Notes under the pieces: generated by a model
The model's input: only the letters and a program-made list of their open reading frames with translations
What the model was told of the DNA's origin: nothing
Databases searched by the model: none
Shown: positions 8,245 through 23,245 of the stretch, one piece after another
How the letters are laid out: each line of letters opens with the position of its first letter
Numbering within the stretch: the first letter of the stretch is position 1
Made by a program: the position numbers and the translations under genes
Source: a virus
DNA: 23,245 nucleotides
Reading direction: 5' to 3' (one strand)
IMG/VR virus record: IMGVR_UViG_3300046413_000118
Coordinates: 1-23,245 of that record

Positions 8245-8396
8245 TTAATTATAAAGAACTAGAAAAAGGTTGGAAAGAGTCCTGTCCTGAAGAAGCGATG
8301 GGACTTTCTAATACTCTACATAAACAAACCATTTGGAGGAAACAATGGGAGCGCTTAAACAAAACATGGCAGAAATACACGAATCGACTTTACTAG
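8244..8396 (+). other. Coding-like open frame without a standard start codon
   Basis: A frame open from about 8241 to TAG 8394-8396 would encode NYKELEKGWKESCPEEA followed by a Trp/Lys/Gln-rich helix. A GGAG at 8233-8236 is well placed for an ATT at 8244. The first in-frame ATG (8298) would give 32 residues. It overlaps the next gene by 52 bp. The residue pattern looks protein-like, but a rare start codon or a sequencing error would have to be invoked. Confidence 0.25.
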
Positions 8397-8754: not shown

Positions 8755-9035
8755 GAAGAAAATGCTCTATACCAAGAACCGATTATATATTTCAATTTAA
8801 ATCTACCAACCACGGCACTGTTGATTGGCAATTTCACAAAAAAGTTGTTGATAAAATGCATCATGCTTTATGGCTAGTAGATAAATCACATCTAGTTGTG
8901 CTTACAAAACTAGATGAACAAGCTAAAAAAGAAGTACATCAAGAATTATTTGAAAGTTTTGAAAAAATAGACAATCAAGCAGTACGAGACCATAACAACA
9001 AAAAAGCACGTGAACGACGTGCAAAAAAAAGCTAA
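8751..9035 (+). CDS. Hypothetical basic protein, 94 aa
   Basis: The start is coupled to the previous gene (ATGA). The product begins MRRKCSIPRTDYIFQFKS, contains DWQFHKKVVDKMHHALWLV and LVVLTKLDEQAKKEV, and ends in a very basic helix RDHNNKKARERRAKKS that could bind nucleic acid. No family recognised. It is the last gene before the inserted opposite-strand unit, and its stop codon lies inside the terminator stem at 9031-9041. Confidence 0.65.
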   Translation: MRRKCSIPRTDYIFQFKSTNHGTVDWQFHKKVVDKMHHALWLVDKSHLVVLTKLDEQAKKEVHQELFESFEKIDNQAVRDHNNKKARERRAKKS

Positions 9036-9073
9036 CGTTAGATGGGTGACATACTAACGCTAGCCTAATTTTT
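9031..9073. terminator. Bidirectional intrinsic terminator between convergent genes
   Basis: GCTAACGTTAG (9031-9041) pairs with CTAACGCTAGC (9054-9064) with one mismatch and a 12-nt loop. T5 follows on the plus strand (9069-9073), and A8 at 9023-9030 supplies a U-run for the minus strand. It can end both the small-gene operon arriving from the left and the 9084-9494 gene arriving from the right. Confidence 0.8.
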
Positions 9074-9083
9074 GATTAACAGA

Positions 9084-9494
9084 TTAAGATATGTATATCC
9101 ACATTTCTAACGTACCCGTTGCAACGTCACCTGCTGGTGCTACCTGACATGTAATGTCAATAGTATCATCCGCAGAGTAAGTTATAGGAGCAAGGTTAGC
9201 ATCTTCATGATCAACACCGCCGGCTTGGCCGATTGTTGAACCATCAAGAAATCTGTCAGCATCAGTAGCATCACCTACATCTAGTACTAAACCAGTACCA
9301 GTATCTAGATCAGATGATTTAATTTTGATGTCATGTAGTGTTTCACCAGCGAAGATGTCTACCATTTGGTATACGTCAGCAGCATTAGGTGCAGCAGTTA
9401 CATTAAATTTAGCGTACCTAACACCCATAGAACCACTTGGAAATGGTTTGAATGCCGAGTTACCGCTAACTGAGTCACTTGTAAAAGTAGCCAT
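9084..9494 (-). CDS. Putative virion or decoration-type protein, 136 aa
   Basis: The protein is rich in Gly, Ala, Asp and Thr and poor in Lys. It starts MATFTSDSVSGNSAFKPFP, includes MGVRYAKFNVTAAPN and LHDIKIKSSDLDTGTGLVL, and ends TGTLEMWIYIS. The short alternating hydrophobic strands suggest an all-beta fold like small phage decoration or head-associated proteins; this is a resemblance, not a family match. It stands alone on the opposite strand within a rightward operon, with a near-consensus sigma70 promoter (9543-9570) and its own terminator. AAGGTAAAACT precedes the ATG. This layout fits a moron: an independently expressed extra gene. Confidence 0.65.
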   Translation of the reverse strand: MATFTSDSVSGNSAFKPFPSGSMGVRYAKFNVTAAPNAADVYQMVDIFAGETLHDIKIKSSDLDTGTGLVLDVGDATDADRFLDGSTIGQAGGVDHEDANLAPITYSADDTIDITCQVAPAGDVATGTLEMWIYIS

Positions 9495-9515
9495 AGTTTT
9501 ACCTTATATTTTACT

Positions 9516-9535
9516 ATTACACACCATTGTGTAAT
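9516..9535. promoter_or_regulatory. Perfect inverted repeat at the transcription start of the 9494 gene
   Basis: ATTACACA (9516-9523) and TGTGTAAT (9528-9535) are exact 8-bp inverted arms around CCAT. Given the promoter at 9543-9570, they cover about +1 to +20 of the minus-strand transcript. It could be an operator or a 5' stabilising hairpin. Confidence 0.6.
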
Positions 9536-9542
9536 ACTCTCT

Positions 9543-9570
9543 GTTATAGAGACATTTTTCCGAATGTCAA
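9543..9570 (-). promoter_or_regulatory. Sigma70-like promoter, TTGACA - 16 bp - TATAAC
   Basis: Read on the minus strand, -35 TTGACA lies at 9565-9570 and -10 TATAAC at 9543-9548 with a 16-bp spacer. The -35 is perfect and the -10 differs at one base. It is placed to transcribe the gene starting at 9494, with a 40-nt leader holding the 9516-9535 palindrome. Confidence 0.75.
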
Positions 9571-9591
9571 ATTAATTAAGGAGTAATTAAG

Positions 9592-9807
9592 GTGCCACCC
9601 AGCTACGTTTACGTTAAAAGAAACCCGATACACCCTTACATTTATACAATACCTGAAGATTTGCCTCACATACAATGGAAGCGAGTTCGAGTCTCTATAG
9701 CGTATAACATGTGCACTAGTAAACAAAAAGGTTGGGAAAGAGCAAAAACGAGTGAATATATAAACTGGTGCGAACAAATGCAAGCAGCTGGTTACAAAAT
9801 TGTTTAG
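9592..9807 (+). CDS. Hypothetical protein, 71 aa, GTG start
   Basis: AAGGAG at 9579-9584 precedes the GTG start. The product is MPPSYVYVKRNPIHPYIYTI followed by WKRVRVSIAYNMC and KTSEYINWCEQMQAAGYKIV. It is Tyr- and Pro-rich early, with basic stretches and two Cys residues. No family recognised. It sits 8 bp before the DNA polymerase gene and is probably the first gene of the replication operon, whose promoter must lie in 9495-9591 or further left. Confidence 0.65.
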   Translation: MPPSYVYVKRNPIHPYIYTIPEDLPHIQWKRVRVSIAYNMCTSKQKGWERAKTSEYINWCEQMQAAGYKIV

Positions 9808-9815
9808 GAGAAACT

Positions 9816-11615
9816 ATGCGTAAATTATATTTAGACTTTGAGACGTATTATGACGTTCATTTTAGTCTTACAAAGATGACTACAGCCCAGTATGTAAATG
9901 ATGAAAATTTTTCTGTATGGGGTGTTGGATTAAAGTTTGATGATGAACAAACACAATGGATCCCAGGTGAAGAATGTTTCGATGTATTACATTCTATTGA
10001 TTGGGATGACGTTGCTGTAATCTGTCACAATACTTTATTTGATGCTTACATACTTACTCATCATTATGGAGTGACACCAAAATATTACTACGATACAGCT
10101 GCAATGAGCCGTGGAGTGTATCCAAACCAAAGCGCAAGTCTAAAAGAAGTAGCTATGCGTGTGTTCCCAAACGACAACACTAAACGTAAAGGAGATGAAC
10201 TTGTTACTGCTAAAGGCATTAAAGACCTGCCGCCAGATATAGAAGAAAGTATAGCTGAATATTGCATACAAGACGTAGATCTAACTTATTACATATTCAA
10301 TGAATTTTTACCAACTTACCCAGAACAAGAGTTACATCTCATAGATCTTACATGTAGGATGTTCGTTGAACCTAAAATTGTTCTTAATAAACAACTGCTT
10401 GAAGAACATCGAGACAACGTAAAAGAAACTACTACTAACTTAATAGATGCTAGCGGCATTACAAGAGAAGTCCTGGCGTCTCAAGTAAAGTTTACACAAC
10501 ACCTTACCGATGAGCTGCAGCTTGTAATACCAAAAAAGAAAAGCCCGCGCACAGGAGAAATGATTCCAGCACTTGGTAAATCTGACCCCGGTTACATACA
10601 AATGTGCAGAACTCATCCAGAATATCAACACATATGGGATGCTAGAGAAGCAGTTAAATCTCGTATAGAAGAAACAAGAGCTAATAGATTTATTGATTCA
10701 ATAAACCCAGACGGAACTATATCTGTCCCACTTCGTTATTACGCTGCACACACAGGGCGTTTTGGCGGTGCAGAAAAACTAAACTTACAAAACCTGCCAC
10801 GCGGATCTAAACTTCGTACTGCATTACAATCTCCAGCAGGCCAGCTTATGTATGTAGCCGATTTATCAAATATTGAAGCTAGAATGCTTGCTTGGTTAGC
10901 TAAAGAACAAGATCTTATTGATGCCTTTGCAACTGGTAGAGATGTTTATTGTGAATTTGCTAGTCAAATATACAATCGAAAGATTACAAAAGCAGACAAG
11001 CTAGAACGTTATGTAGGCAAAACTGCAATATTAGGACTTGGTTATGGTATGGGACCTGACAAGTTTAAAGCAACTCTAAAAGCAGGATCGCCATCTGTTG
11101 AAGTTACTGACGCTACAGCTATGAGTATTGTAAGCCAATACCGAGGTATGTATCCAAACATACCATTGCTATGGAATGGTTCTAAAAACTTATTGTTTGC
11201 AATGATGAACCGAGGTTCAGTAGGCATGAACTACGGGCCTTTAGTTGTTGACACTAACTCACTGCAGCTTCCCAACGGCATGCATCTTAAATACCCACTT
11301 TTACAATACCAACGAGGAGAGTTTACATATTCCAGCGGGCGAAGTTATATACGTACGCATGGCCCTAGAGTTACAGAAAATATTGTTCAAGCATTAGCTC
11401 GAATCGTTATTACAGATCAAATGTTAGAAATACAGAACATTCCTGAAGTATCAGTTGTATTACAAATACACGACGAAGTTATTTCATTAGCTTCTGATTC
11501 TGAGCCTGACAAGACTTTAGAAAAAATTATAGATATAATGAAAACACCCTTATCTTGGTGTCAAGATCTCCCATTAGACGCCGAAGGTGGATACAGTACT
11601 AGCTATGACAAATGA
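9816..11615 (+). CDS. polA: DNA polymerase I-like (family A) with 3'-5' exonuclease, 599 aa
   Basis: The start at ATG 9816 has TAGGAGAAACT before it. The exonuclease part shows Exo I LDFET (D7, E9), Exo II HNTLFD (N72, D76) and Exo III YCIQD (Y149, D153), so proofreading should be active. The polymerase part shows motif A VADLSNIEAR (D349), motif B KTAILGLGYGM (K402 to M412) and motif C QIHDEV (H552, D553, E554). The residue matching E. coli Pol I Phe762 is L406. The N-terminal 5' nuclease of bacterial Pol I is absent, as is usual for phages. It replicates the phage genome and is followed by a 4-bp overlap with the CsrA-like gene. Confidence 0.97.
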   Translation: MRKLYLDFETYYDVHFSLTKMTTAQYVNDENFSVWGVGLKFDDEQTQWIPGEECFDVLHSIDWDDVAVICHNTLFDAYILTHHYGVTPKYYYDTAAMSRGVYPNQSASLKEVAMRVFPNDNTKRKGDELVTAKGIKDLPPDIEESIAEYCIQDVDLTYYIFNEFLPTYPEQELHLIDLTCRMFVEPKIVLNKQLLEEHRDNVKETTTNLIDASGITREVLASQVKFTQHLTDELQLVIPKKKSPRTGEMIPALGKSDPGYIQMCRTHPEYQHIWDAREAVKSRIEETRANRFIDSINPDGTISVPLRYYAAHTGRFGGAEKLNLQNLPRGSKLRTALQSPAGQLMYVADLSNIEARMLAWLAKEQDLIDAFATGRDVYCEFASQIYNRKITKADKLERYVGKTAILGLGYGMGPDKFKATLKAGSPSVEVTDATAMSIVSQYRGMYPNIPLLWNGSKNLLFAMMNRGSVGMNYGPLVVDTNSLQLPNGMHLKYPLLQYQRGEFTYSSGRSYIRTHGPRVTENIVQALARIVITDQMLEIQNIPEVSVVLQIHDEVISLASDSEPDKTLEKIIDIMKTPLSWCQDLPLDAEGGYSTSYDK

Positions 11616-11782
11616 ACAATCTAATACTAACTAGGCGCGTTAAAGAAGCAGTCGTCATCTATAAAGATGGAGAGTTTGTATGTGAAGTTATCGTCACTAA
11701 CTTAGGACTTAAACAATGCAAATTAGGTTTTGTAGCAGACAAAAATATAAAAATAGATAGAAAAGAAAAAAATAAAAACTAA
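11612..11782 (+). CDS. csrA: CsrA/RsmA-family RNA-binding regulator, 56 aa
   Basis: The ATG overlaps the polymerase stop (ATGA). The product begins MNNLILTRRVKEAVVIYKDG and continues EVIVTNLGLKQCKLGFVA and IKIDRKEKNKN. It lines up along its length with CsrA: LILTRRV at the N-terminus, the central strands, the GV/GF turn, and the final 'h-x-h-x-R-x-E' whose Arg (R50 here) corresponds to the RNA-contacting Arg44 of E. coli CsrA. The usual Gly after RRV is Lys. CsrA dimers bind GGA motifs in mRNA leaders and change translation and stability. A phage copy could act on host mRNAs or on its own GGA-rich ribosome-binding sites. Confidence 0.85.
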   Translation: MNNLILTRRVKEAVVIYKDGEFVCEVIVTNLGLKQCKLGFVADKNIKIDRKEKNKN

Positions 11783-11794
11783 TAGGAGGCCCAA

Positions 11795-14236
11795 ATGGAA
11801 ATAGTTTTTTTAGAAGCAAAAAAGAAGCTTGTTAAAGAGATATCAAAAAATTCTACCACACCGTACCCACTTGTAAAAAAGTTTACTTCTCACCATTTTG
11901 ATTTTAAAAAGAACCAACAGGGGCTAGAAGATTTGTACGAAGCATTACAAACAGCAGCAGCTGCAGGTATGTGTCTACATAAAGGTTTATTGTTAAAAGA
12001 ACTACAAGACGAACCCCGGGCTTTAGTTGCAGATCGCAATGCACCAACCGAGCTGTTAGTTATAGATGTAGATGGACTACAAATGCCAGCTCAGGATTTA
12101 ACCGATGTAAGAACACTAGCTGAAAAGTTTATAGTACATATGCCTGAAGAATTTCAGAACGTATCTTACATAGCACAAGCAAGCGCATCATTAGGTTTAA
12201 AAGAAGATAAAGTGTCTTTGCATTTGTTCTTTTTTCTAAAACATGCAGTTCATCCTAAAACATTAAAAGAATGGTTAAAAACTCTTAACTATGAGACTGA
12301 TATGTTAGCTAAACATTTACAACTTTCAGCTAACGGGCAAAGTTTAAGTTATACATTAGACCCATCAGTTGCTGAAAACAGTAAACTAATTTATTTATCA
12401 GCTCCAAAATTTGTAGGTGTAGAAGACCCTATACCAGGAGACAGGTTTGTATTACAAAAAAGAGGCACACCCTGTTTAGATCTAAATGTAAGTAACATCA
12501 ATCCAGAACGCGTACACAACTTAGGAGTACAAATAAAAGATAGCTTACGTAAAAAACTAAACTTACCAAAGAAAAGCTCAAAAATAACTACAATAACTAT
12601 AGCTAACGAACAACAAGAGGTTCTTCAGAACCCAGATAAGATGACTATAGATGTAGTACGAGTTAACGAACCTTACGTAAACTGTAATGTAAACGGAGGC
12701 GACAGTAATGGCTATTACTTCTTACTTTCTAATCCTCATTATATGTATAACTTTAAAGGTGAACCTATATGGGAAATACAAAAAGCAGATCCTGATTTCT
12801 ACAGAAGTATATTTGAAGTTTTTGCCGATAAAATACAAGGTGACCAGCAGCTAAAGCCAGTTGTATTACGAGATTTTTATACCGATACTTACTTTAATGG
12901 TATCTATGATGACAATAGACAACAGTTTACAGACGAGTATCCACTCACTCCTACTCAAAAATCTTCACTAAATGACTTCATGCGCACGCATAACCGTACA
13001 TTACCTGACTACGTACCCGATGCGCAGGTAGTGTTTGATCCATCTTCTGACAAAGGAATACAACTAGACCAGGCCCCTTATCATGTAAATCTATATAGAA
13101 AGACTTCTTATATGCTAGAAGCAAAAGAAACAGTAGAACTAGAATATGGCACTGCAAAAAAACTAAAAGAACGCGTACCTAATATATATAAGTTGCTTCA
13201 TCACATACTAGGCAACGGTGATACTGAGTTTGAACATTTTATTAATTGGTTAGCTTATATATATCAAAACAAAAGAAAGACCATGACCGCATGGATATTT
13301 ACAGGCGTTCCCGGCACTGGTAAAGGTTTGTTTGTACATCGAATATTAAAACCTTTGTTTGGCGAATCACAAGTCCCTATGCGTTCTTTAGAGAATATAG
13401 AAGAACAATTTAATTTGTATATGCGCACAGCACTCTTCTTAGTCGTAGACGAGTTTCGTATGAGTGACTCATCTAATACAAATAAAATGGCAGATAAACT
13501 TAAACACCAAGTTACAGAGCCTACACTTACTATTCGAGCTATGCGTACAAACCAAGTGGAACTACCAAGTTTTTGTAACTTCATTTTTCTTACTAACAGA
13601 GGAGATGCAGTTCGTATAGAAGAAGGAGATAGACGTTACAACGTAGGGCCCCGGCAGGAAAGTAAACTACAAAATGTTATACCTGAACTATTAGACAATT
13701 TAGAAGATCTAACAAAAGAACTGTATTACTTTGCTGGTGTATTACAAACTTTCCAGGTAGATAATCGTATGGCTCATACAGCACTAGAAAACGAAGCTAA
13801 ACAACAAATGAAACAGATCTCTATGTCTGTATTAGAAGAGTTCGCACACGCAATTAAAGAAAAGAATCTTGAATATTTTATTGAAATACTAGATATAGAA
13901 ATTACAAATACATTTGACGCAGGGTCTATAGCATCAGCACAAAGATATATTAAAGACTGGGTTTCTAAAGTAGGTGTAGAAACAGTAATACCAATGCAGC
14001 ATCTTAAAGTTGTTTATGATGTTCTTACTGATAGCCGTAACAAGCTATCTCAAAGAGACTTCTCTAAAGCTATGTCTAGGCAAAATATACTAATAAAAAG
14101 AAAAAGAGTATCTTCTAACAAAAACGCCAGCATACCCAGAGGGGTTGTAATAAGTTGGAAACTTGACGATAATGTTAAGGAAACTCTTATAAAAGAACAT
14201 TTCGAAGAAAAAGATTTAAAACTATTATCTAAGTAA
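11795..14236 (+). CDS. AEP-type primase fused to SF3-like helicase, 813 aa
   Basis: AGGAGGCCCAA precedes the ATG. The N-terminal domain has the three archaeo-eukaryotic primase motifs in order: VIDVDG (D91, D93), SLH (S141, H143) and TLDP (D189). The C-terminal half is a helicase: Walker A GVPGTGKG at 504-511, Walker B FLVVDEF (D552, E553), and sensor LTNRGD (N601) followed by EEGDRRYNV, as in SF3/DUF5906-type primase-helicases. The protein would open the duplex and lay primers for the PolA-type enzyme encoded upstream. About 270 residues between the domains show no clear motif. The last 130 residues look helical and may be a DNA-binding winged-helix region. Confidence 0.9.
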   Translation: MEIVFLEAKKKLVKEISKNSTTPYPLVKKFTSHHFDFKKNQQGLEDLYEALQTAAAAGMCLHKGLLLKELQDEPRALVADRNAPTELLVIDVDGLQMPAQDLTDVRTLAEKFIVHMPEEFQNVSYIAQASASLGLKEDKVSLHLFFFLKHAVHPKTLKEWLKTLNYETDMLAKHLQLSANGQSLSYTLDPSVAENSKLIYLSAPKFVGVEDPIPGDRFVLQKRGTPCLDLNVSNINPERVHNLGVQIKDSLRKKLNLPKKSSKITTITIANEQQEVLQNPDKMTIDVVRVNEPYVNCNVNGGDSNGYYFLLSNPHYMYNFKGEPIWEIQKADPDFYRSIFEVFADKIQGDQQLKPVVLRDFYTDTYFNGIYDDNRQQFTDEYPLTPTQKSSLNDFMRTHNRTLPDYVPDAQVVFDPSSDKGIQLDQAPYHVNLYRKTSYMLEAKETVELEYGTAKKLKERVPNIYKLLHHILGNGDTEFEHFINWLAYIYQNKRKTMTAWIFTGVPGTGKGLFVHRILKPLFGESQVPMRSLENIEEQFNLYMRTALFLVVDEFRMSDSSNTNKMADKLKHQVTEPTLTIRAMRTNQVELPSFCNFIFLTNRGDAVRIEEGDRRYNVGPRQESKLQNVIPELLDNLEDLTKELYYFAGVLQTFQVDNRMAHTALENEAKQQMKQISMSVLEEFAHAIKEKNLEYFIEILDIEITNTFDAGSIASAQRYIKDWVSKVGVETVIPMQHLKVVYDVLTDSRNKLSQRDFSKAMSRQNILIKRKRVSSNKNASIPRGVVISWKLDDNVKETLIKEHFEEKDLKLLSK

Positions 14237-14238
14237 TT

Positions 14239-14994
14239 TTGAAAAACTACTTACAGGACACTCGTCCAGATCTTGACAATGTCATAGCATCGGACAAACC
14301 AGAGGAGCTGGGACTTATACCAGCTTGGTCGTACTCTACACTAAAAACTTACGAAGGTTGCGAATACAGACTCTATATTAATAAAGTAAAAAAAATACAG
14401 GAAGACTACGGCGAAGCAGCAGCACGCGGTACACACATACACGAAGAAGCTGAAGCTTATGTAAAAACAGAGTTAGGTGAATTACCAGACTCTTTAAAAA
14501 AATTCAGCTCTCAATTCTCCTTACTTAGAGATCAATACGTCGAAAGCAATGTTGAGCTAGAAGGAGAATGGGGTTTTACAATAGACTGGGAAGCATGCGA
14601 TTGGATGGCTCCCAATGTTTGGGCTCGAGTAAAACTCGATGCAATATTACATGAGTCAGATACGTCAGCACGCGTAATAGATTATAAAACAGGAAGACAG
14701 TTTGGTAATGAGATTGCACATAGCCAGCAGGGCCTTGTGTATGCAATAGCTACCTTCTTTAGATATCCTGAACTAGAAAGTCTTAACACAGAATTTTGGT
14801 ATTTAGATCATGGTGGCACTCTTGAGAAAGTATACACAAGAGCTGAAGCTATGATGTTTATGCCAAAACTACAAGAGCGAGCTTTAAACTTAACTACCGC
14901 GACTAGATTTACACCTAATCCATCTCAATACAACTGTAAGTGGTGTTCATATGGAAAAGGAGAGCATCCAGTATGCGAGTGGAGTTTTAAATAA
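14239..14994 (+). CDS. Cas4/RecB-like PD-(D/E)XK nuclease, 251 aa
   Basis: The core motifs are RGTHIHEEAE (H68), D134 in VKLDAIL, the D-x-K triad in VIDYKTG (D148, K150) and SQQGLVYA (Q163, Q164). This is the RecB/Cas4-type exonuclease fold. C41 (YEGCEY) together with C233, C236 and C246 near the end has the spacing of the four cysteines that hold a 4Fe-4S cluster in Cas4 and AddB-like nucleases. No CRISPR or cas1/cas2 is nearby, so a role in phage recombination or DNA end processing is likely. The start is a TTG 2 bp after the helicase stop with no clear Shine-Dalgarno; no in-frame ATG lies nearby. Confidence 0.88.
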   Translation: MKNYLQDTRPDLDNVIASDKPEELGLIPAWSYSTLKTYEGCEYRLYINKVKKIQEDYGEAAARGTHIHEEAEAYVKTELGELPDSLKKFSSQFSLLRDQYVESNVELEGEWGFTIDWEACDWMAPNVWARVKLDAILHESDTSARVIDYKTGRQFGNEIAHSQQGLVYAIATFFRYPELESLNTEFWYLDHGGTLEKVYTRAEAMMFMPKLQERALNLTTATRFTPNPSQYNCKWCSYGKGEHPVCEWSFK

Positions 14995-15008
14995 CTCTGT
15001 GGTAAAAT
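14980..15008 (+). promoter_or_regulatory. Possible extended -10 promoter before the SNF2-type helicase
   Basis: TGG-TAAAAT (15000-15008) fits an extended -10 (TGnTATAAT) with two mismatches or fewer. A poor -35 TGGAGT lies 17 bp upstream. It falls in one of the few gaps (14995-15054) of this dense operon. Confidence 0.3.
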
Positions 15009-15054
15009 AACTACATACAACGAAAAATGAAACACGAACTAAGAAAGGTGAACT

Positions 15055-16422
15055 ATGGACACGATCTCTATCGAGGATGCGTATCAGCATCAAATTGAAA
15101 CTACAAACTTTATCAACTCTAACCCCCGCTGTCTGATTACATCAGATCCAGGTACTGGGAAAACACGTGCAGTCTTAGATGCTATAAATCCTAAACTAGG
15201 AGCTACGTTAGTACTTGCGCCGTTATCTATACTTGAAGCTTCTTGGGTAGAGGATATAATAAAGTTCACACCAAAATTAAAATACGGAGTTGCATATGCC
15301 AAAAACAGAAAAAAAATCTTCGAAGACACCAGTTACGACATCGTCATCACTAACTTCGAAGCTGTTAACTTTTTACATAAAAACCCATTACTACTTAGCA
15401 GGTTTAATACCATCGTCCTTGACGAATTTACTGCTTTCAAAAATAGAGAAGCCAAACGCTCAAAGAACCTCAAGTCTATTATCCATCATTTTGATAATAG
15501 AATTGCTATGTCTGGTACTCCTAATAGTAATACTATTCTAGATTTATGGCATCCGACACTATTAGTAGATGACGGTAAACGATTAGGTCAAAGATTTTGG
15601 TCTTTTAGACACCAAGTTTGTACACCTAAGTTTAATGGCTTTGCTAATGAATGGATAGACAAACCCGGTATTGAAGCTGTTGTAGCTAATCAGCTATCAG
15701 ATATAACTATACGACATGCAATTGAAGATTGTATGGATCTTCCAGACAACAATGTCAGAACTATGTATACAAAACTTACACCAGCTGTGCAAAAGATGTA
15801 CAACATCTTGGCAGAAGAGTCCGTCTTGTATACAAAACAAGGGACCATCAACGCTGTTAACGCTGCATCTAGAGTTAAAAAGTTATTACAGCTAGTTTCA
15901 GGGGCTGTATATGATCAAGATGGTAATGCTACTTTATTACATAACGAACGATACGAGCTGGTTATGCAGCTTGTATCACAACGTAAACACTCACTAGTCG
16001 CATACAATTGGAAGCATGAGCGTGATTCGTTGATCGCCATTGCAGAACGAGAAAAAATATCATACGACTTAATTGATGGTTCTGTCCCTGCACATAAACG
16101 TAAAGACATCGTACAACGCTTTCAGGCTGGACATATACAAGTATTGTTCGCCCACCCGCAATCTACGTCACATGGACTTACACTTACAAAAGCTACTACT
16201 GCTATATGGTGTTCTCCTACGTACAGCGCTGAGCAGTTCCAACAATTTAATCGTCGTATACATAGAGCAGGCCAAACTCAAAAGACTGAAACTATTTTGA
16301 TTGCAGCTAAAGATACCTGGGAAAAACACGTATACAAAAAGCTAGATGGTAAGTTAGGCAAAATGGAAAACTTACTACATATTTTATCGGAGATAAATAA
16401 TGTCAAAAAAACAAATAATTGA
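15055..16422 (+). CDS. SNF2/SF2-type DNA helicase, 455 aa
   Basis: Motif I is DPGTGKT (residues 31-37), motif II LDEFT (D123, E124; a DEFT variant of DEAH/DEAD), motif III MSGTP (S153 to P156), and motif VI QQFNRRIHRAGQ lies near the end. The single-chain length and the 'R-I-H-R-x-G-Q' motif match phage SNF2-family ATPases. These translocate on DNA and are thought to assist recombination, replication-fork restart or removal of bound proteins. AAAGGTGAACT precedes the ATG. The gene overlaps the next one by 23 bp. Confidence 0.92.
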   Translation: MDTISIEDAYQHQIETTNFINSNPRCLITSDPGTGKTRAVLDAINPKLGATLVLAPLSILEASWVEDIIKFTPKLKYGVAYAKNRKKIFEDTSYDIVITNFEAVNFLHKNPLLLSRFNTIVLDEFTAFKNREAKRSKNLKSIIHHFDNRIAMSGTPNSNTILDLWHPTLLVDDGKRLGQRFWSFRHQVCTPKFNGFANEWIDKPGIEAVVANQLSDITIRHAIEDCMDLPDNNVRTMYTKLTPAVQKMYNILAEESVLYTKQGTINAVNAASRVKKLLQLVSGAVYDQDGNATLLHNERYELVMQLVSQRKHSLVAYNWKHERDSLIAIAEREKISYDLIDGSVPAHKRKDIVQRFQAGHIQVLFAHPQSTSHGLTLTKATTAIWCSPTYSAEQFQQFNRRIHRAGQTQKTETILIAAKDTWEKHVYKKLDGKLGKMENLLHILSEINNVKKTNN

Positions 16423-16666
16423 ATTGCTAGCTGAAGATGTACAACTAAAGATACAAGAACTGTCTTTAGTTGATAACGAAATACTTGCAACTGCTTTAAT
16501 TTTTGCTATGGCAGAAGTTGAAGCTGCGAATATGTATGGTTCTACTGGAGAATTTAATACTCCAGAAAAAGCCCATGACTTACTTACAAGTGCCAGCGAA
16601 GCTGCCTTAGTCATGGTTAATACTTTAATAGAGACAATAGAAAGCCAACAGGAGGTAAAACACTAA
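16400..16666 (+). CDS. Hypothetical helical protein, 88 aa
   Basis: CGGAGATAAATA precedes the ATG, which lies inside the end of the helicase gene. The product starts MSKKQIIELLAEDVQLKIQE and is almost entirely helical and acidic, with an Ala/Met-rich centre (ALIFAMAEVEAANM) and an EVKH end. The stop and next start share a base (TAATG). It may be a small partner or regulator of the helicase, but no family is recognised. Confidence 0.65.
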   Translation: MSKKQIIELLAEDVQLKIQELSLVDNEILATALIFAMAEVEAANMYGSTGEFNTPEKAHDLLTSASEAALVMVNTLIETIESQQEVKH

Positions 16667-17040
16667 TGTCAGAACTAACTATGGATGATCTCCTAAAAGA
16701 TCTTAATAGCTCAAAAGAATCGTTAAGAGAGTTACAATCGCAAGAAAAAACTCTTAAACAATCAATTAATGAGTTAGAAAACCGAATTATTCTTAATCTT
16801 GAAAACCAAGGAGTGGATAGGATTGGGAATGATGTGTGTACAGTTTCCATTAAAAAAGAAATTGTACCAACTGTAGATGATTGGGACAGCGTTCACCAAT
16901 ACATAATTGACACCCGTCAGTTTGAGTTATTGCAAAAACGTATGTCTGCAACCGCTTACAGAGAGCTTCAACAAATGGGACAAGAGGTTCCAGGTGTTGA
17001 AGCAACTGAGTTGACCCGAATTAATTTTAGGTCTAAATAG
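16666..17040 (+). CDS. Coiled-coil phage protein, 124 aa
   Basis: AGGAGG lies a few bases before the coupled start. Residues 8-50 form a clear coiled coil (LKDLNSSKESLRELQSQEKT...). The second half has strand segments, a VPTVDDWDSVHQYI element, FELLQKRMSATAYRELQQMG and EVPGVEATELTRINFRSK. I recognise this 'coiled coil, then VP..DWD..., QRR-type helix, VPGVE' order as recurring in tailed phages beside single-strand-binding-type proteins, with no known function. Its place between helicase and presumed ssDNA-binding gene suggests a role in replication or recombination. Confidence 0.65.
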   Translation: MSELTMDDLLKDLNSSKESLRELQSQEKTLKQSINELENRIILNLENQGVDRIGNDVCTVSIKKEIVPTVDDWDSVHQYIIDTRQFELLQKRMSATAYRELQQMGQEVPGVEATELTRINFRSK

Positions 17041-17072
17041 TAACTATATCAATGAAACAAGGAGTACGTACA

Positions 17073-17753
17073 ATGAACGATATAGCTATAAAAGCAAATG
17101 AGATGCCCGCTCATATAAAAAAGGGTAGTGGTCTTGGTAATGAAGGTATTACCGCAGAGCACTTACAAACTCCTCGTGTAAAGCAACTACAAAGTAGCTC
17201 GAACGAGGTTGATCCAAACCACAGTGATTATTTAGAAGGAGCCAAAATCGGTGACTTCTTTAACACTGTAACAAACGAAATATACGGAGATAAAATAAAC
17301 GTTATAAACGTATACTTTAGAGACGAATACGTTGTTTGGAAAAAACGAGAAAAGGGTGGTGGCCTAGTAGGCACTTTTGCTTCTCAAGTCGAAGCTGTCG
17401 ATGCTTTAAAAGCAGACGGTAAAGATGTTGAAGAGCATGAGATTACTCAAACTCACTCGCATACATTGATTAAAATCGATGGAAAAACAGGTGAGATAGA
17501 CAAAACACCTTTTATATTTGACTGTGCTAGTTCAAAGCTTCGCGTAAGCAGAGAATGGAACACTCAAATTATGCGTTTGGGTGGAGATAGATTTGCGTCT
17601 GTATGGACAATGTCTTCTGCTCCTACTCAAAACAGAACGGGTAAATCGTTCTATAATATTTCAGTTGAAAACGAAGGATGGGTTAACGAAGAGCATTATG
17701 CTTTCGCTAAGTCTGTTTACGAAACACTTCCAGGTGTTAAAGCTTCAGCTTAA
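17073..17753 (+). CDS. Phage DNA-metabolism protein, presumed ssDNA-binding, 226 aa
   Basis: AAGGAG at 17059-17064 selects ATG 17073; an ATG at 17052 upstream overlaps that site. The sequence order is typical of a phage family found in replication modules: EMPAHIKKGSGLGNE, HLQTPRVKQLQSSS, KIGDFFNTVTNEIYG, INVYFRDEYVVWKKREKGGG, then SVWTMSSAPTQNRTGKSFYN. Members are often annotated as ssDNA-binding or gp2.5-like, without firm proof known to me. Its position after the nuclease and helicase genes agrees. The aromatic and basic middle could contact DNA. Confidence 0.65.
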   Translation: MNDIAIKANEMPAHIKKGSGLGNEGITAEHLQTPRVKQLQSSSNEVDPNHSDYLEGAKIGDFFNTVTNEIYGDKINVINVYFRDEYVVWKKREKGGGLVGTFASQVEAVDALKADGKDVEEHEITQTHSHTLIKIDGKTGEIDKTPFIFDCASSKLRVSREWNTQIMRLGGDRFASVWTMSSAPTQNRTGKSFYNISVENEGWVNEEHYAFAKSVYETLPGVKASA

Positions 17754-17767
17754 TATTATGTTTGTAT

Positions 17768-17800
17768 TACATGGTGCGTCACAGGCTGTCGCACCATGTA
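17768..17800 (+). terminator. Perfect 11-bp hairpin between the ssDNA-binding-type and VRR-NUC genes
   Basis: TACATGGTGCG (17768-17778) is an exact inverted repeat of CGCACCATGTA (17790-17800), with an 11-nt loop. No T-run follows, so it is not a standard intrinsic terminator. It may mark an mRNA 3' end or processing point that keeps expression of the upstream gene high. Confidence 0.5.
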
Positions 17801-17830
17801 TGCACTCTCCTATATGTTATACTTGGTTAA

Positions 17831-18226
17831 GTGATCGAGAAAACATTTATAGCAAAGATCCACAAAAAACTCTCCAAAGAAATATATCGTTGGAAAATTA
17901 ATGATGCATACCATGGAGGCGTTCCTGACGTGTACTACAGCGGCCTGACTGGCTGCATGTTTGTAGAATACAAATACCACAAAAAGATACCTGTGAAATC
18001 AACTTCTAAAATTTCAATTAATACATCTACGCAACAAAAAGAATGGTTAAAAAAAGCACTAAGTCATAGTGTGCCTGCTTACGTAGTAGTCGGAGCTGCA
18101 GATAAGATTGTAATGACACAGGATATAAACAAAACATTTTTTACAGTTAAAGAATTTTTAGAACAAGCGTATAGTTTTGATGAATATGTAGATAAATTAA
18201 CTAATATGCTTACAACAGGAGGTTAG
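17831..18226 (+). CDS. VRR-NUC/PD-(D/E)XK nuclease, 131 aa
   Basis: The start is GTG 17831 with a weak ribosome-binding site. The motif GGVPDVYYSG (D33) followed by FVEYKY (E46, K48) gives the PD...E-x-K catalytic triad, and STQQKEWL adds the Gln motif. This is the small VRR-NUC form found in phages, probably a Holliday-junction resolvase or flap-type nuclease acting on recombination intermediates. IYRWKINDAY near the N-terminus suits DNA contact. It ends with AGGAGG next to the following start, so the next gene is coupled. The 77 bp before it hold only the hairpin. Confidence 0.8.
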   Translation: MIEKTFIAKIHKKLSKEIYRWKINDAYHGGVPDVYYSGLTGCMFVEYKYHKKIPVKSTSKISINTSTQQKEWLKKALSHSVPAYVVVGAADKIVMTQDINKTFFTVKEFLEQAYSFDEYVDKLTNMLTTGG

Positions 18227-18227
18227 A

Positions 18228-18425
18228 ATGTCGGATAAAATAAATCCACCCTATTACAACAAGTCAATTGAAACTACAGACTACATACTTGCCCACGACT
18301 TAGGCTACTTAGAAGGTAATATTGTTAAGTATGTCACAAGGTATAAAGAAAAAAATGGTATTGAAGATTTACATAAAGCTGAGTGGTACTTAGCTAAACT
18401 AATAAAACAAGTAAGGAACCAATAG
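18228..18425 (+). CDS. DUF3310-family protein, 65 aa
   Basis: ACAGGAGG precedes the ATG closely. The product shows INPPYYNKSIETTDYI and, toward the end, NIVKYVTRYKEKNGIEDLHKAEWYL. This 'G-N-x-x-K-Y-x-x-R-y-x-x-K-x-G-x-x-D-L-x-K-A-x-W-Y-L' signature is that of DUF3310, often called nucleotide kinase-like in phages but without proven activity. It is the last rightward gene. Its stop abuts the stop of the convergent gene at 18426 with no gap and no hairpin terminator. Confidence 0.85.
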   Translation: MSDKINPPYYNKSIETTDYILAHDLGYLEGNIVKYVTRYKEKNGIEDLHKAEWYLAKLIKQVRNQ

Positions 18426-18728
18426 TTATTTCTTTTTACGCCTGCGAGTAGTTTTTTTCTTACGTGCAATAGTACGTACATTTGTAGGTTTACCACCTGG
18501 ATTACCAGCTCTACGTTTTCTAGTAACTGCACTCTTCTTTTGTGCAGTCGTCATACTTTTGGCCTTGGAGCGTGGTACACACTTCGGGTACTTACGTTTA
18601 CTTTTACTAGCAGACTTACGCCCGCACGCTTGATACTTGCCCTTCTTTTTAGGTGCGCCTATGTCTACCCAATCCCCTTTAGAGCCTTTGCCAAACCATG
18701 CAGTTAATCCACCAGTAGGTTTAGCCAT
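18426..18728 (-). CDS. Lys/Arg-rich conserved viral protein, 100 aa
   Basis: The N-terminus MAKPTGGLTAWFGKGSKGDW is followed by VDIGAPKKKGKYQACGRKS, a YPKCVPRSKAKSMT segment, and a basic tail ending in KKKTTRRRKKK. I recognise the 'W-V-D-I-G-x-P-K...CGR...YPKCVP' pattern as recurring in marine phages and large viruses, with no known function. Two cysteines (in QACGRKS and YPKCVP) may bind a metal. The strong positive charge suggests nucleic acid binding. The start overlaps the stop of the upstream gene by one base (TAATG). Confidence 0.75.
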   Translation of the reverse strand: MAKPTGGLTAWFGKGSKGDWVDIGAPKKKGKYQACGRKSASKSKRKYPKCVPRSKAKSMTTAQKKSAVTRKRRAGNPGGKPTNVRTIARKKKTTRRRKKK

Positions 18729-18904
18729 TACCTATAGCCCCCGCCTCTTTTTTTGTATGTACGCACTAGCCAACCGTTGGCGTATGCTGAAGGATATACT
18801 TTAAATTTTCTTTTAGCTTCTGCTTTAACTCTTGAATACAAAGCTGGATTAGTAGGCTTTGCACCGCTTTTCTTTTTAGTAGCTTTTTTCTTTTTAACTG
18901 CCAT
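18728..18904 (-). CDS. Basic conserved protein with PSAYAN motif, 58 aa
   Basis: GGAGATAAA before ATG 18904 sets the start; an in-frame ATG at 18991 would overlap the neighbouring gene and lacks a binding site. The product is MAVKKKKATKKKSGAKPTNP, then LYSRVKAEAKRKFKVYPSAY, then ANGWLVRTYKKRGGGYR. The 'KxYPSAYANxWLVxxYKxRGGxY' signature occurs in many marine viral genomes, frequently next to the YPKCVP-type protein as here. It looks like a small nucleic acid-binding or virion-packed protein. Function unknown. Confidence 0.75.
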   Translation of the reverse strand: MAVKKKKATKKKSGAKPTNPALYSRVKAEAKRKFKVYPSAYANGWLVRTYKKRGGGYR

Positions 18905-18905
18905 T

Positions 18906-19157
18906 TTATCTCCTTTTTTTACGACCTGTACTAGTCCTTGGAAAAGATCTATTAGACTTTCTAGATTCCATTCTAATATTTTTTGGTTCACTGTTTAAAG
19001 GATTTCCATCTTTATGATGCACGTCTTTGCCATCTCCTTTTTTAGCTTTACCTAACCTAATCATAAGCCTTCTAGCTTTATTCCTACTAGCCCTAGCTTT
19101 TTTTTGTTTAGCTGAGCCTTGATATCTATCGTATTCAGCACGATAGTTACGAGCCAT
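18906..19157 (-). CDS. HNH-like basic protein, 83 aa
   Basis: The core VHHKDGNPLNSEPKNIRM carries the 'HHxDGNPxN...N' pattern of the treble-clef/HNH nuclease fold, with a basic helix (ARASRNKARRLMIRLGKA) before it and RSFPRTSTGRKKRR after it. Canonical HNH enzymes have a longer metal site; here the zinc-knuckle cysteines are absent, so nuclease activity is uncertain. Similar short proteins are common in marine phages. Stop and next start are separated by one base, so it is co-translated with the PSAYAN protein. Confidence 0.7.
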   Translation of the reverse strand: MARNYRAEYDRYQGSAKQKKARASRNKARRLMIRLGKAKKGDGKDVHHKDGNPLNSEPKNIRMESRKSNRSFPRTSTGRKKRR

Positions 19158-19158
19158 A

Positions 19159-19350
19159 TTACTTACCTATTTGTTTTTGCGCTTTTTTATGAGCAGCTCT
19201 AAAGTTATCACCCATTAACATACGACGTTTCATATATTTCATATGAGCAGCTGTATGGTGCTTAGAGTGCCTAGCTAAAGAAGCATCTTGACGTTTAGTT
19301 AGAGACTTCTTTTTTACCTTCATAGAAGGTTTTTTTCTCGTTCTAGCCAT
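19159..19350 (-). CDS. Small His/Lys/Arg-rich protein, 63 aa
   Basis: The product MARTRKKPSMKVKKKSLTKR continues QDASLARHSKHHTAAHMKYM and ends RAAHKKAQKQIGK. The helix-forming 'LTKRQ..SL.RHSKHHT..HM..M...M..G..F..AHK.AQ' pattern recurs among small viral proteins; its function is unknown to me. It is strongly basic like the neighbouring genes and overlaps the upstream gene by 8 bp. Nucleic acid or virion DNA association is an inference from charge. Confidence 0.7.
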   Translation of the reverse strand: MARTRKKPSMKVKKKSLTKRQDASLARHSKHHTAAHMKYMKRRMLMGDNFRAAHKKAQKQIGK

Positions 19351-19492
19351 TTTTAATTTTCATTGATTTCAGTTTAGTAGGAGCTTCTCCGTCTTTAGTC
19401 GGCACTTGATATAAGGTCACTATATGTTCACCTTTATCATTTAGCTCCCAAACCAAATCTTTATCTCCGCTAGTAGTTGAAGTTATTATCAT
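19343..19492 (-). CDS. Small protein, 49 aa
   Basis: AGAGGC lies 7 bases before ATG 19492, and the frame runs to TAG at 19343-19345, overlapping the start of the His-rich gene. The product starts MIITSTTSGDKDLVWELNDK, continues GEHIVTLYQVPTKDGEAPTK, and ends LKSMKIKNG. The alternating pattern suggests a small beta sheet. It fills what would otherwise be a 150-bp gap in a tightly packed minus-strand operon. No family recognised. Confidence 0.6.
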   Translation of the reverse strand: MIITSTTSGDKDLVWELNDKGEHIVTLYQVPTKDGEAPTKLKSMKIKNG

Positions 19493-19500
19493 AGTAGCCT

Positions 19501-19689
19501 CTAGTAAGATTTGTAATCTTTCATAGGATCGCCTAATGAAGGCATCATTCCTAATTGTGATCTTGTTTGCATAGGGTCTTGCAACATATCGTTAGCACTA
19601 TTAGGTACATTGGGTTTCATTTGGTATTCAGACACTTTCATATCTCCTACCATTCCTTGTTTAGGGCCCATTTTTATTCTATTTGCCAT
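19501..19689 (-). CDS. Hypothetical Met/Pro-rich protein, 62 aa
   Basis: ACAGGAAAAACTT precedes the ATG. The product MANRIKMGPKQGMVGDMKVS is unusually rich in Met, Pro, Gln and Asn and looks disordered, ending GDPMKDYKSY. No family recognised. Low-complexity small proteins of this sort occur near virion genes in tailed phages. It follows the cyclase gene by 33 bp and precedes the 49-aa gene by 8 bp, so it belongs to the same transcript. Confidence 0.6.
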   Translation of the reverse strand: MANRIKMGPKQGMVGDMKVSEYQMKPNVPNSANDMLQDPMQTRSQLGMMPSLGDPMKDYKSY

Positions 19690-19722
19690 AAGTTTTTCCT
19701 GTGGTTATTGTTTTTATTTTAC

Positions 19723-21462
19723 CTATAAAGTATAAATTTTCAAAGGCTCTGTAATACCTTTTGCTTCTATAGGTTTTAGAACTTTTAACTGTATGCCACA
19801 AGCTTTAGCAGTTGCTTCTGCAATTATTAAATCAACGCCTACAGTCTTACAACTTGATTCACACCTGGCTGCAATATTTACAGCAGAGCCTATAGCTGTG
19901 TAATCAAATCTAGTAGACGAACCTAGATTGCCTATAACCGCTTCACCTGTATTCAAGCCGATTCCTATTGAAACTCCAATGTCTGACTCTTTAAATTCTT
20001 TTTGTATTTCTTGCGCACAAAGCACTGCTGCTTTCTCATGGTCTTGTAAGTCAAGAGGTGCGTTAAATATAGCCATCATTGCATCTCCTATGTACTTGTC
20101 TACCATTCCGCCGTATTTCTTAACCGCATCTGACTGTATAGTAAGTGCTCTATTCATAATTTTTGTTACATTTTCAGGATCCATCGTTTCACTCATAGCA
20201 GTAAACCCACGCACATCTGTAAATAAATACGTACAAATTCTTTTTTCTCCGCCTAACTTAAGTAAACTGGGATCAGACTGCAAAGCCTTCACTTGTCTAG
20301 GATCTAAGTAATGCTCAAATTGTTTTTTAATCTGCTGCCTTAGCTTGTATTGTTCTCTAAACCTAAGATAAAAAGCTACTGTAGCTGTTATAAACTGTGA
20401 AATAAGAGCCCAAGTTACATCTATAAGAACTGCATTACTTATTGTGTAGAATCCGTAACTCGCTGTAAGTAATAATATAGATGTAGCGCTTACAAGCCCC
20501 AGTGTAATCCCAAAAGTATGTAAGCAGACCCAAATAAATAACATACCTGTTGCAAGAATTAAAAGCTCTACAATAAAAGCGTAGTCTGGTATGTATGGAC
20601 TATCCGCAATAAGTATACTTTCGGCAAGGGCTGCCTGTATCTTATGAGGTTCTAATAACCCTACAGGCGTTGCAAGTTGTGGAGATATTCCTTTAGCTGT
20701 GAATCCTACAAACACAAATTTATTTTCTACATCCATTTCAGCAAGATTAGTCTGTGGGGTATTCACGAAACTTATCCACTTGCGTCCTAAACTGTCTGTT
20801 TTTACTGGAGAAAGCCCTTTTACTCGTATTTCTTGTATTACATCATCACTCGTTTTTATAACATAAGTGTCTGCACCTGCTAAAATTTTAAGGACTTCTG
20901 TTCCATATGAAGGCACCCAACCGTCAGGAGTACGCATTAGTAAAGGTAATCTACGCACTAAATTATCAATATCAGTTCTAGCTACTGCTATGCCTTGACT
21001 AGCATTTTGTTTTAAAACGTCTATATTTTGTATTACTCCTGCTGCTGGGATGCCTCCAGTATCATCACCAAGAATAACCGTGCCCGTGGTTGGAGGGTAT
21101 TGATCCGTGTTATTTTCAAACATAGCAAGTACGCTTGGGGAAAAAGAAAGTGCTTCCATAAACTCAAAGTCACCCCCGAATCTGTCAGGTTGCGGGAAAG
21201 CCATAACCCAACCAACGCCTATTGCTCCTTTACGTAAAAGATTAATATGTATTTGAGCTAGTGTTTGTCTAGACAAAGGATATCCACCCTCTTCAGCAAT
21301 GTCTTCTTCAGTAATATTTAATATAGTAAAGTAACCACTTTCTTGCTGTTCTGGTATCAAAGCATCAAATGTTTTAAGCTTAATTAACTCTAAAGGAGTT
21401 ATTGAATAAATTAAAGGCAAACTAAGTAGTATCAGTAAAACCCCAAACTGTATTTTTTTCAT
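19723..21462 (-). CDS. CHASE2-domain class III adenylate cyclase, 579 aa
   Basis: An N-terminal membrane anchor (residues 5-22) leads to a periplasmic CHASE2 sensor (about 25-290), then three membrane spans (about 295-365) and a cytoplasmic cyclase domain (about 405-579). Metal-binding Asp are D416 (FTDVRGFT) and D460 (DKYIGDAM). The purine-selecting pair is K456 with T522 (FDYTAIG), a class IIIb pattern that favours ATP. Transition-state residues N529 and R533 are present in SAVNIAAR. The enzyme should be active and make cAMP in response to an envelope signal. Its ATG overlaps the FecR-domain gene stop (ATGA), so the two are co-translated, as in the CHASE2-cyclase/FecR pairs of bacteria. Confidence 0.93.
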   Translation of the reverse strand: MKKIQFGVLLILLSLPLIYSITPLELIKLKTFDALIPEQQESGYFTILNITEEDIAEEGGYPLSRQTLAQIHINLLRKGAIGVGWVMAFPQPDRFGGDFEFMEALSFSPSVLAMFENNTDQYPPTTGTVILGDDTGGIPAAGVIQNIDVLKQNASQGIAVARTDIDNLVRRLPLLMRTPDGWVPSYGTEVLKILAGADTYVIKTSDDVIQEIRVKGLSPVKTDSLGRKWISFVNTPQTNLAEMDVENKFVFVGFTAKGISPQLATPVGLLEPHKIQAALAESILIADSPYIPDYAFIVELLILATGMLFIWVCLHTFGITLGLVSATSILLLTASYGFYTISNAVLIDVTWALISQFITATVAFYLRFREQYKLRQQIKKQFEHYLDPRQVKALQSDPSLLKLGGEKRICTYLFTDVRGFTAMSETMDPENVTKIMNRALTIQSDAVKKYGGMVDKYIGDAMMAIFNAPLDLQDHEKAAVLCAQEIQKEFKESDIGVSIGIGLNTGEAVIGNLGSSTRFDYTAIGSAVNIAARCESSCKTVGVDLIIAEATAKACGIQLKVLKPIEAKGITEPLKIYTL

Positions 21463-22574
21463 CCTGACCCCTGTTTAATTGTAATCGTTGTAGAAGACCC
21501 TCCATTAATTTTAACCGTATTAGATACACCGTCTTGTATCAAAATAATTGTATAGCTGTTAGAGCCGTCTAAGTTTAATCTAGCACTTTGGTTAACTGTT
21601 CGATTTAAACTAATAGTTTGCCCAGCTATAATAGTTGTTATCTGTGTGTCTTTGTCTTGGCCTATTTCTGTACCAGTTATACGAATACCAACACCACCTT
21701 GTTTAAGAGCATCTTCTTCTTTAGATATAGCTAGTGCATCTAATACGTTAAGCAAGTCTTCTAAAAAGTTTACATCTAAGTAGTTAATGTCTAGCTCAGT
21801 GAATTCTAGTTCTGCTTCTGCATCTAAAAAATCTTCGTTAAGAAAGTCTATATCAAGATCATTAAAGTCAAGGTAGTCAGCAGAGGCTTGCGTTTGTGTT
21901 TGCTCTAATGATTCGTCTGTTTGTTCAGGTGGGTTAACAATAAGCATATTGTCAATCAAGTCTAGTGAGATATCTAACGTAACAGGTTTAGTCGGATTGT
22001 TTTCGTATACAGATACAGTTGTTGCCTGATAAGGTTTGTTTAATGTAACGCTACCCATAGCAGTAGCTACAACTATTTCACCACTAGAGATACCATTTTC
22101 ATCAGGCAATAGTATTACAAGGGATCTACCTAGCTCGTCCACAGTACACGTAAAGTCCGTACCTCTTATTGCAATCTGGGCTGTTGGCGTACGTATTGAT
22201 ATGTTGCTCTTGTTGTTAAATTTACCTGTAATAAATCGCGCTGTGCCACTAGCAAACTTCAAGGCCATTTTAGATTTTGACGGGTCAGGATCGTAGATGT
22301 ATTCGTCTATAACTAACTTAGAATGTTCTGTCAGTTTGACTGTAGAAGAATCTTCAAAGGTTATGGCAACTCTGCCCGCTTCTGTACGGACATCATCCAT
22401 TTGTTGTATGTTAAATTCTAGTTCAGCTCCGTAGGGTTTATCTCTTAGAACTTGTGCGTTGCCTTTAAGTTCAGATATAGAACCTATTTCAACAGACGAA
22501 TGAAGTTGTTGCGTCTGACTGAGTAACACAAACTGTGCCATTAGAGCCAGCAGATGTAATCTTAAGCCAGTCAT
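21459..22574 (-). CDS. FecR-domain exported protein with curlin-like tail, 371 aa
   Basis: A likely signal peptide (MTGLRLHLLALMAQFVLLSQ) precedes a FecR domain at about residues 60-165, with RTEAGRVAITFEDSS, ALKFASGTARFITGKF and the hallmark IRTPTAQIAIRGTDF. Residues 233-280 form an acidic repeat-like run of D-L/F-x pairs. The end, about 325-371, has NSYTIILIQDGVSNTVK and TTITIKQGSG, resembling curlin-type strands (Q-x-G-x-x-N). No TonB or sigma partner is near, so it probably serves the adjacent CHASE2 cyclase. The first 86 bp overlap the upstream gene. A start at M12 (22541) is possible. Confidence 0.88.
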   Translation of the reverse strand: MTGLRLHLLALMAQFVLLSQTQQLHSSVEIGSISELKGNAQVLRDKPYGAELEFNIQQMDDVRTEAGRVAITFEDSSTVKLTEHSKLVIDEYIYDPDPSKSKMALKFASGTARFITGKFNNKSNISIRTPTAQIAIRGTDFTCTVDELGRSLVILLPDENGISSGEIVVATAMGSVTLNKPYQATTVSVYENNPTKPVTLDISLDLIDNMLIVNPPEQTDESLEQTQTQASADYLDFNDLDIDFLNEDFLDAEAELEFTELDINYLDVNFLEDLLNVLDALAISKEEDALKQGGVGIRITGTEIGQDKDTQITTIIAGQTISLNRTVNQSARLNLDGSNSYTIILIQDGVSNTVKINGGSSTTITIKQGSG

Positions 22575-23232
22575 TGTCTGATGTAGATTCCTGATCTATG
22601 TTAAATGTTCTATCACTACCCGTATGATCTAAGTAGAAGTAGCCTCCAGCATACCCATCACCATCATAAGTAACTGTATTATCATCTCCATCGATGTCCA
22701 TGTAATTAGTAGCACCATCTACATCTATGGCTGCTGTAATACTGTTACCTCCACCTTGTATAATCCAATCTAAATCTAAGTTTGCTGCTAGAGCGGTCAT
22801 AGCGTGGTTGAGTGTCATGGTGTTTGTATTACCTGTCACTTGTACGTTTACATTAGAACCATCTGCACCTGTAGCGTTGGTCTCATCTGTAGACATATTA
22901 AACGTATTGCTGTCACCTATGAACGAGAAATAACCTGTGTAGGTATCTGCCCAAATGTCTCCTAGGAATTTATTTGTTGAACCTTTTTGTAGAATATCTA
23001 AGGTCATAGTTGCACCATCAATATCCAGTGCGGTCATAGAACCAGCTGAAGCATCAGCACCACCGATGATGTTGCCACTACCACCAACTTGTTCAATATC
23101 TAAATTAGATGTAGCACCTGACTGATCTATAAATATCTCGTTGTCAGCCCCGTATAGTAGCGATACATTCGTCATCGCAAATAGGCTCATCAATATCAAT
23201 CTTTTCATCTTTTTGCCAATAGCCATTTTCAT
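22489..23232 (-). CDS. Secreted curlin-like repeat protein, 247 aa
   Basis: GGAGG precedes ATG 23232. A signal peptide (MKRLILMSLFAMTNVSLLYG, cleavage near A29) is followed by NEIFIDQSGATSNLDIEQVG and many irregular Asn/Asp/Gly/Thr-rich strand repeats of the 'x-I-x-Q-x-G-x-x-N' sort. This pattern recalls curlin (CsgA/CsgB) subunits that form surface amyloid, but the repeats are less regular and Asp-rich. The end has two Cys (VCVTQSDATTSFVC). It is the first gene of the leftward operon seen here and overlaps the FecR-domain gene by 86 bp. A beta-solenoid surface protein not related to curli is an alternative. Confidence 0.7.
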   Translation of the reverse strand: MKMAIGKKMKRLILMSLFAMTNVSLLYGADNEIFIDQSGATSNLDIEQVGGSGNIIGGADASAGSMTALDIDGATMTLDILQKGSTNKFLGDIWADTYTGYFSFIGDSNTFNMSTDETNATGADGSNVNVQVTGNTNTMTLNHAMTALAANLDLDWIIQGGGNSITAAIDVDGATNYMDIDGDDNTVTYDGDGYAGGYFYLDHTGSDRTFNIDQESTSDNDWLKITSAGSNGTVCVTQSDATTSFVC

Positions 23233-23245
23233 AGCCCTCCTCTAT

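Follow-up and report, generated by a model that had tools for sequence, protein, structure and literature searches.

Curli genes carried by phages are widespread in the ocean, and there is no agreement on their function. CsgF and CsgG have been reported in pelagimyophages and in Melnitz (PMC7029224, PMC9004378), and FecR and an adenylate cyclase were described in 2022 in the viral type VIII secretion system (T8SS) module of HTVC023P-type and myovirus pelagiphages (PMC9599517); CHASE2 is mentioned in none of these three papers. As a precedent for the sensory side, CHASE2 cyclases of S. meliloti respond to an outer-membrane protein (PMC13001267). Here we analyse IMG/VR virus record IMGVR_UViG_3300046413_000118 (23,245 bases; the window is this whole stretch), which carries three overlapping genes for a curlin-like protein, a FecR-domain protein and a CHASE2 cyclase. 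We consider it reasonably probable that these genes form the 3′ portion of a viral T8SS (curli) operon, csgF–csgG–curlin–FecR–cyclase, in a podovirus-type carrier, and that the operon works by the mechanism proposed below. The preliminary description of the locus had suggested an undescribed phage signalling module; that suggestion gives way to the published virus curli operon, whose 3′ part includes FecR and adenylate cyclase (PMC9599517).

The operon and its proteins

The operon lies at the end of the window, and the phage backbone runs contiguously into it:

23144..23245, minus strand: 3′ end of csgG (C-terminal 33 residues and stop), clipped by the contig end; translation IEEGYENGYWQKDEKIDIDEPICDDECIATIRG followed by the stop
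22489..23232, minus strand: curlin-like exported repeat protein, the operon's first curlin, 247 amino acids
22489..22574, minus strand: overlap of 86 nucleotides, encoding the FecR signal peptide and the curlin C terminus in different frames
21459..22574, minus strand: exported FecR-domain protein, 371 amino acids (Pfam FecR)
19723..21462, minus strand: CHASE2-domain membrane class III nucleotide cyclase, 579 amino acids (Pfam CHASE2 and Guanylate_cyc), with a 4-nucleotide overlap between its start and the FecR stop
1..19700: phage backbone, with DNA polymerase A, primase/helicase, exonuclease, SNF2-type helicase and others (assigned by Pfam and PHROGs)

The three minus-strand open reading frames (ORFs) of the preliminary description, with their domains, were recovered by an ORF check and by Pfam. 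The CsgG C terminus at 23144-23245 had been overlooked. Its translation is identical at 32 of 33 residues (97%) to the CsgG C terminus of the related contig L026, and because the final 102 bases encode it, the operon extends past the contig end. Full-length CsgG in the related contig L004 scores 171 bits in Pfam. A CsgF gene was found in relatives, L087 of the same lineage included; in the window, its expected place lies beyond the contig end.

Taken alone, the curlin-like protein scores 7.9 bits against Pfam Curlin_rpt, below the cut-off of 20.7 bits. Its family was compared with curlin-2, the second curlin found in related operons, which clears that cut-off, and hhalign gave a probability of 99.2% and an E value of 3e-19. 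This profile-level homology identifies the protein, as far as sequence comparison goes, as a curlin repeat subunit, and it bears out the earlier suggestion of an exported curlin-like protein. A ladder of Q, G and N residues is invariant among 36 homologues, and the structure model is all-beta with a predicted local distance difference test (pLDDT) score of 85. Translation possibly starts at an internal Met at about 23208, directly ahead of the signal peptide. The overlap between the curlin and FecR genes recurs at similar length in many relatives. In the curlin frame, third-position divergence drops from 0.52 outside to 0.42 within the 86-nucleotide overlap, which may be a weak sign of dual coding.

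The FecR protein (50.9 bits for Pfam FecR, PF04773) has one signal sequence, directly followed by the FecR domain, and no further hydrophobic segments. Its AlphaFold2 model (mean pLDDT 68.6, about 80 in both beta parts) comprises a beta domain (29-187), a disordered linker (211-266) and a C-terminal beta module (305-368) ending in ITIKQGSG. Foldseek matched the FecR domain to 6ovk, the domain of PupR for cell-surface signalling (E 8e-5, probability 1.00), and this match and PF04773 both place the fold of the periplasmic FecR signalling domain in the window protein. The cytoplasmic anti-sigma N terminus and the single transmembrane segment of FecR/PupR regulators are absent from it. It is thus predicted to be a Sec-exported periplasmic protein rather than an inner-membrane anti-sigma regulator.

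The end of FecR is characteristic of the module. The pattern [IVLF]x[IVLF]xQx(0-3) was present in all 77 viral FecRs and in 7 of 7 module FecRs from contigs of metagenome-assembled genomes (MAGs), versus 0 of 20 other FecR proteins and 1 of 571 background ORFs used as controls. It was also present in 113 of 115 FecRs in a set anchored on CsgG. A FecR-type ending occurs in 21 of 78 curlins from the same operons.

The cyclase scores 86 bits for CHASE2 and 58 bits for Guanylate_cyc. Hydrophobic segments flank CHASE2 on both sides, so that the domain, its flanking segments and the catalytic residues of a class III cyclase are all present in the window. The residues listed earlier (D416, D460, K456, T522, N529 and R533) are all in place. 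D416, K456 and D460 are invariant across 88 compared cyclases, N529 is kept in 86 of them, and position 522 is T or S in 86. K456 and T522 are the adenylate-type pair of class IIIb. Among the nearest cyclases of solved structure is CyaB of P. aeruginosa (3r5g). This conservation suggests that the window cyclase is likely to be active. The catalytic Asn is replaced by Ser in Melnitz (L083:11917-13968) and in a Rhodobacteraceae-binned copy (L091:6672-8708).

Distribution among viruses and bacteria

The viral location of the genes was confirmed. Contig L003 aligns unbroken over window 14549-22031 at 86% identity, and L324 spans window 9211-21612 with both phage genes and the operon. A phage–host assembly chimera, named in the preliminary description as an outcome that would overturn it, is practically out of the question: the position of the operon at a contig end would fit one, but L003 is an independent contig that bridges phage genes and operon, L324 does the same, L326 and L327 carry the cyclase, and the 60.8 kb phage contig L086 holds the whole operon.

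At least 597 coding relatives of the window cyclase were found in viral contigs, a number that rules out chance. Among the 80 best cyclase relatives, the order csgF–csgG–curlin–FecR–(optional second curlin)–cyclase was observed wherever the contig was long enough, so the synteny that had been proposed as a check is conserved in viral genomes. A second survey was anchored on CsgG, which avoids selection by the cyclase, and 60 of its loci had at least 6.5 kb downstream. Curlin and FecR were each present in 60 of these 60 viral loci and the cyclase in 57. A second curlin gene of canonical type is common in viral operons; HTVC008M and Melnitz share the order csgF–csgG–curlin–FecR–second curlin–cyclase.

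Contigs with a window-like polymerase show gain and loss at closer range. L324, L326 and L327 have the cyclase at the same place. In the close relatives L328 and L330, the cyclase is precisely missing and FecR is retained with its C terminus; window positions 19766 and 21463 adjoin in L328, and 19729 and 21456 in L330. L329 and L363, which also have a window-like polymerase, have neither FecR nor cyclase within the 10 kb covered. Because L328 and L330 keep FecR without the cyclase, the cyclase is an add-on to a csgF–csgG–curlin–FecR core. By these comparisons, FecR is a core part of the module and the cyclase a removable one.

The polymerase and primase of the window are closest to those of KPP25-like podoviruses, Rhizobium phages and phiA008. 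The same lineage includes contig L086/L087 (60,834 bases; polymerase 65%), which is filed under a Neomarinimicrobiota MAG and whose terminal overlap of 1,288 bases indicates a genome of about 59.5 kb. It carries the complete operon and encodes portal, head and internal virion proteins and tail fibres. Its terminase is identical by 50% to that of phiA008, by about 42% to that of KPP25 and by 35% to that of HTVC023P. The window polymerase is weakly similar to the HTVC023P type (E 6e-5 over 106 residues), and no close DNA polymerase or terminase kinship of the window backbone with HTVC023P-type podoviruses was found. These relationships identify the carrier as a phiA008/KPP25-like podovirus, distinct from the HTVC023P-type and myovirus carriers; no earlier report of this lineage as an operon carrier was found in the open-access literature. 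Five contigs are HTVC023P-type carriers by terminase (L028, L046, L060, L072 and L074; 54-59%), and in one of these, L028, FecR is 92% and curlin 91% identical to the window proteins. Because the backbones differ, this closeness shows that the operon was transferred from one to another, wholly or for the greater part, leaving a nearly identical operon in unrelated phages.

In the phage of about 59.5 kb, FecR and the cyclase are separated by an inserted gene for a C5 cytosine methyltransferase (L086:1694-2857). Viral-looking contigs were also seen binned in bacterial MAGs: L084 (Maricaulis), L085 (Pelagibacter) and L086 (Neomarinimicrobiota), the last being part of a nearly complete phage. Elsewhere in the window, 1078-1395 has no clear genes and contains TGGAACA/TGTTCCA repeats in both orientations; it may serve in replication or regulation. 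At 3996-6780, a gene for a MoxR-type AAA ATPase precedes one for a DUF2201 metallopeptidase/VWA-like protein. Neither a tRNA nor an Rfam match that might hint at a host was found in the window.

FecR and the cyclase have been stated in print not to lie inside bacterial T8SS operons. Two freshwater Caulobacteraceae MAG contigs, L088 and L089, carry csgF–csgG–curlin–curlin–FecR–cyclase flanked by ordinary bacterial genes. They align with each other in the operon only (87% over 5,975 bases), which places the operon at different sites. Their FecR is 40% identical to that of the window and has the same C-terminal motif, and a family search recovered full-length FecR in only 2 of 390 genomes, these two. 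In the cyclase tree (32 rows), the Caulobacteraceae copies cluster with viral contig L167 (100/99), a grouping compatible with transfer in either direction. These operons appear to qualify the published absence, with MAG assembly as a caveat. A strong csgG match was found in 6 of 385 alphaproteobacterial genomes. A bacterial origin gained no support from this csgG survey: one of the six matches is in the Caulobacteraceae MAG, and the other five loci have curlins but neither FecR nor cyclase close by.

Possible mechanism and alternatives

In the mechanism that we propose, CsgG and CsgF would together make a pore through the outer membrane of the infected cell. The curlin-like protein, exported by Sec, would pass through that pore and form a fibre. 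The C-terminal beta module of FecR, which resembles the last curlin strand, would bind curlin or the secretion complex and, in most versions, FecR would also contact the periplasmic CHASE2 domain of the cyclase. The state of secretion or assembly would thereby set cytoplasmic cyclic-nucleotide production, with cyclic adenosine monophosphate (cAMP) as the presumed product, and the phage might benefit through cell aggregation or the exclusion of competing phages. Most likely, then, FecR would inform the CHASE2 cyclase about curlin or about the state of secretion. A more specific form is possible, and we offer it tentatively: FecR may be a dual adaptor, its FecR domain signalling to the cyclase and its curlin-like C-terminal strand docking on curlin, in a self-contained second-messenger circuit by which the infected cell gauges its own curli secretion, in hosts otherwise without curli or a CRP-type cAMP receptor. 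The proposal builds on features with direct support, namely the gene order, the domains, the conserved active site, the export signals, similar operons in different backbones, and a constant FecR beside a removable cyclase.

Several observations weigh against it. The contact of FecR with CHASE2 or with curlin is something we infer. Comparison of the FecR tail with curlin profiles was non-significant (P 0.014 and 0.023; control 0.042), so the similarity between the two is kept at the level of the motif. A fold search with the curlin model gave no significant match to any solved fold, and Melnitz cultures did not clump under the conditions used (PMC9004378). Finally, a cyclic nucleoside monophosphate (cNMP)-binding domain was found in just 4 of 79 Pelagibacteraceae genomes (controls worked; a class III cyclase above the cut-off in 2 of 79) and in none of 13 phage records, where a phage-encoded cAMP receptor was accordingly rejected.

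The scarcity of cNMP-binding domains also bears on the view that the genes are an autonomous phage signalling cassette that serves mainly to raise cAMP in the host, the curlin-like protein being an adhesin in its own right. The conserved active site and the presence of the cyclase at nearly all csgG loci (57/60) are in its favour. However, the genes are part of a csg operon, the cyclase is its dispensable part, and CRP-type receptors are mostly missing from the host group best known for such phages, all of which makes this view improbable. The active site claimed in the preliminary description therefore stands, whereas the manipulation of host cAMP that it proposed is doubtful, at least in SAR11. 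A use of the cyclase resembling Pycsar, in which its product, a cyclic pyrimidine nucleotide or another cyclic nucleotide, would act on an effector, would account for the match of the PADLOC PycC models to the cyclase domain (103 bits). In one Caulobacteraceae copy, moreover, the gene immediately downstream of the CHASE2 cyclase encodes a PycTM-type Pycsar effector (L089:13548-14141, Pfam E 8.8e-25). The other Caulobacteraceae copy has no PycTM effector, and PycTM (PF18967) was found neither in the window nor in the other virus records tested. Pycsar was rejected on this count; that the cyclase is a membrane CHASE2 protein and has K and T, as a class IIIb adenylate cyclase should, also speaks against it, and we give it hardly any weight.

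The csg pore may instead have been repurposed for lysis timing or as an uptake channel (PMC9004378, PMC7029224), with the curlin-like and FecR proteins gating it and no fibres made. The divergence of the first curlin, below the Pfam cut-off, and the lack of clumping in Melnitz would fit such a role. We regard it as rather unlikely, given that all 60 csgG loci have the curlin-like gene, that this gene retains the Q/G/N ladder of curlins, and that a second, canonical curlin gene is common. The label of iron-dependent regulator of the module, applied to FecR in PMC9599517, agrees with the fold match to the PupR signalling domain. With the anti-sigma part missing from an exported protein that has no further transmembrane segment, the label is unsupported. 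The conserved gene order of the best 80 viral relatives also includes no sigma factor or TonB receptor. Iron regulation by FecR was rejected as very unlikely. The comparisons made here call into question both this label and a simple action of cAMP through a host CRP.

Comparison with described systems

The Burkholderia BiofilmReg operon (PMC5192318), a precedent for pairing FecR with CHASE2, resembles the present one in placing an exported FecR-domain (FecR/LysM) protein beside a CHASE2 membrane sensor; it differs in its histidine kinase output and in having no csg genes. HTVC008M and Melnitz differ from the window in being myoviruses, in their protein identity of about 32-38% and in the second curlin between FecR and cyclase. 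The HTVC023P-type module (PMC9599517) agrees with the present one in gene order, which runs from CsgF and CsgG through a CsgA/B-like repeat protein and FecR to adenylate cyclase; a histidine kinase is reported upstream of it. Its carrier lineage is different, the large terminase of the window lineage being 35% identical to that of HTVC023P. The viral curli module is of a kind already described; what is new here is a carrier lineage absent from the cited papers, together with comparative facts that offer testable handles: the CsgF–CsgG–curlin–FecR core, the cyclase as an add-on, the module-specific FecR C terminus and a bacterial carrier outside SAR11.

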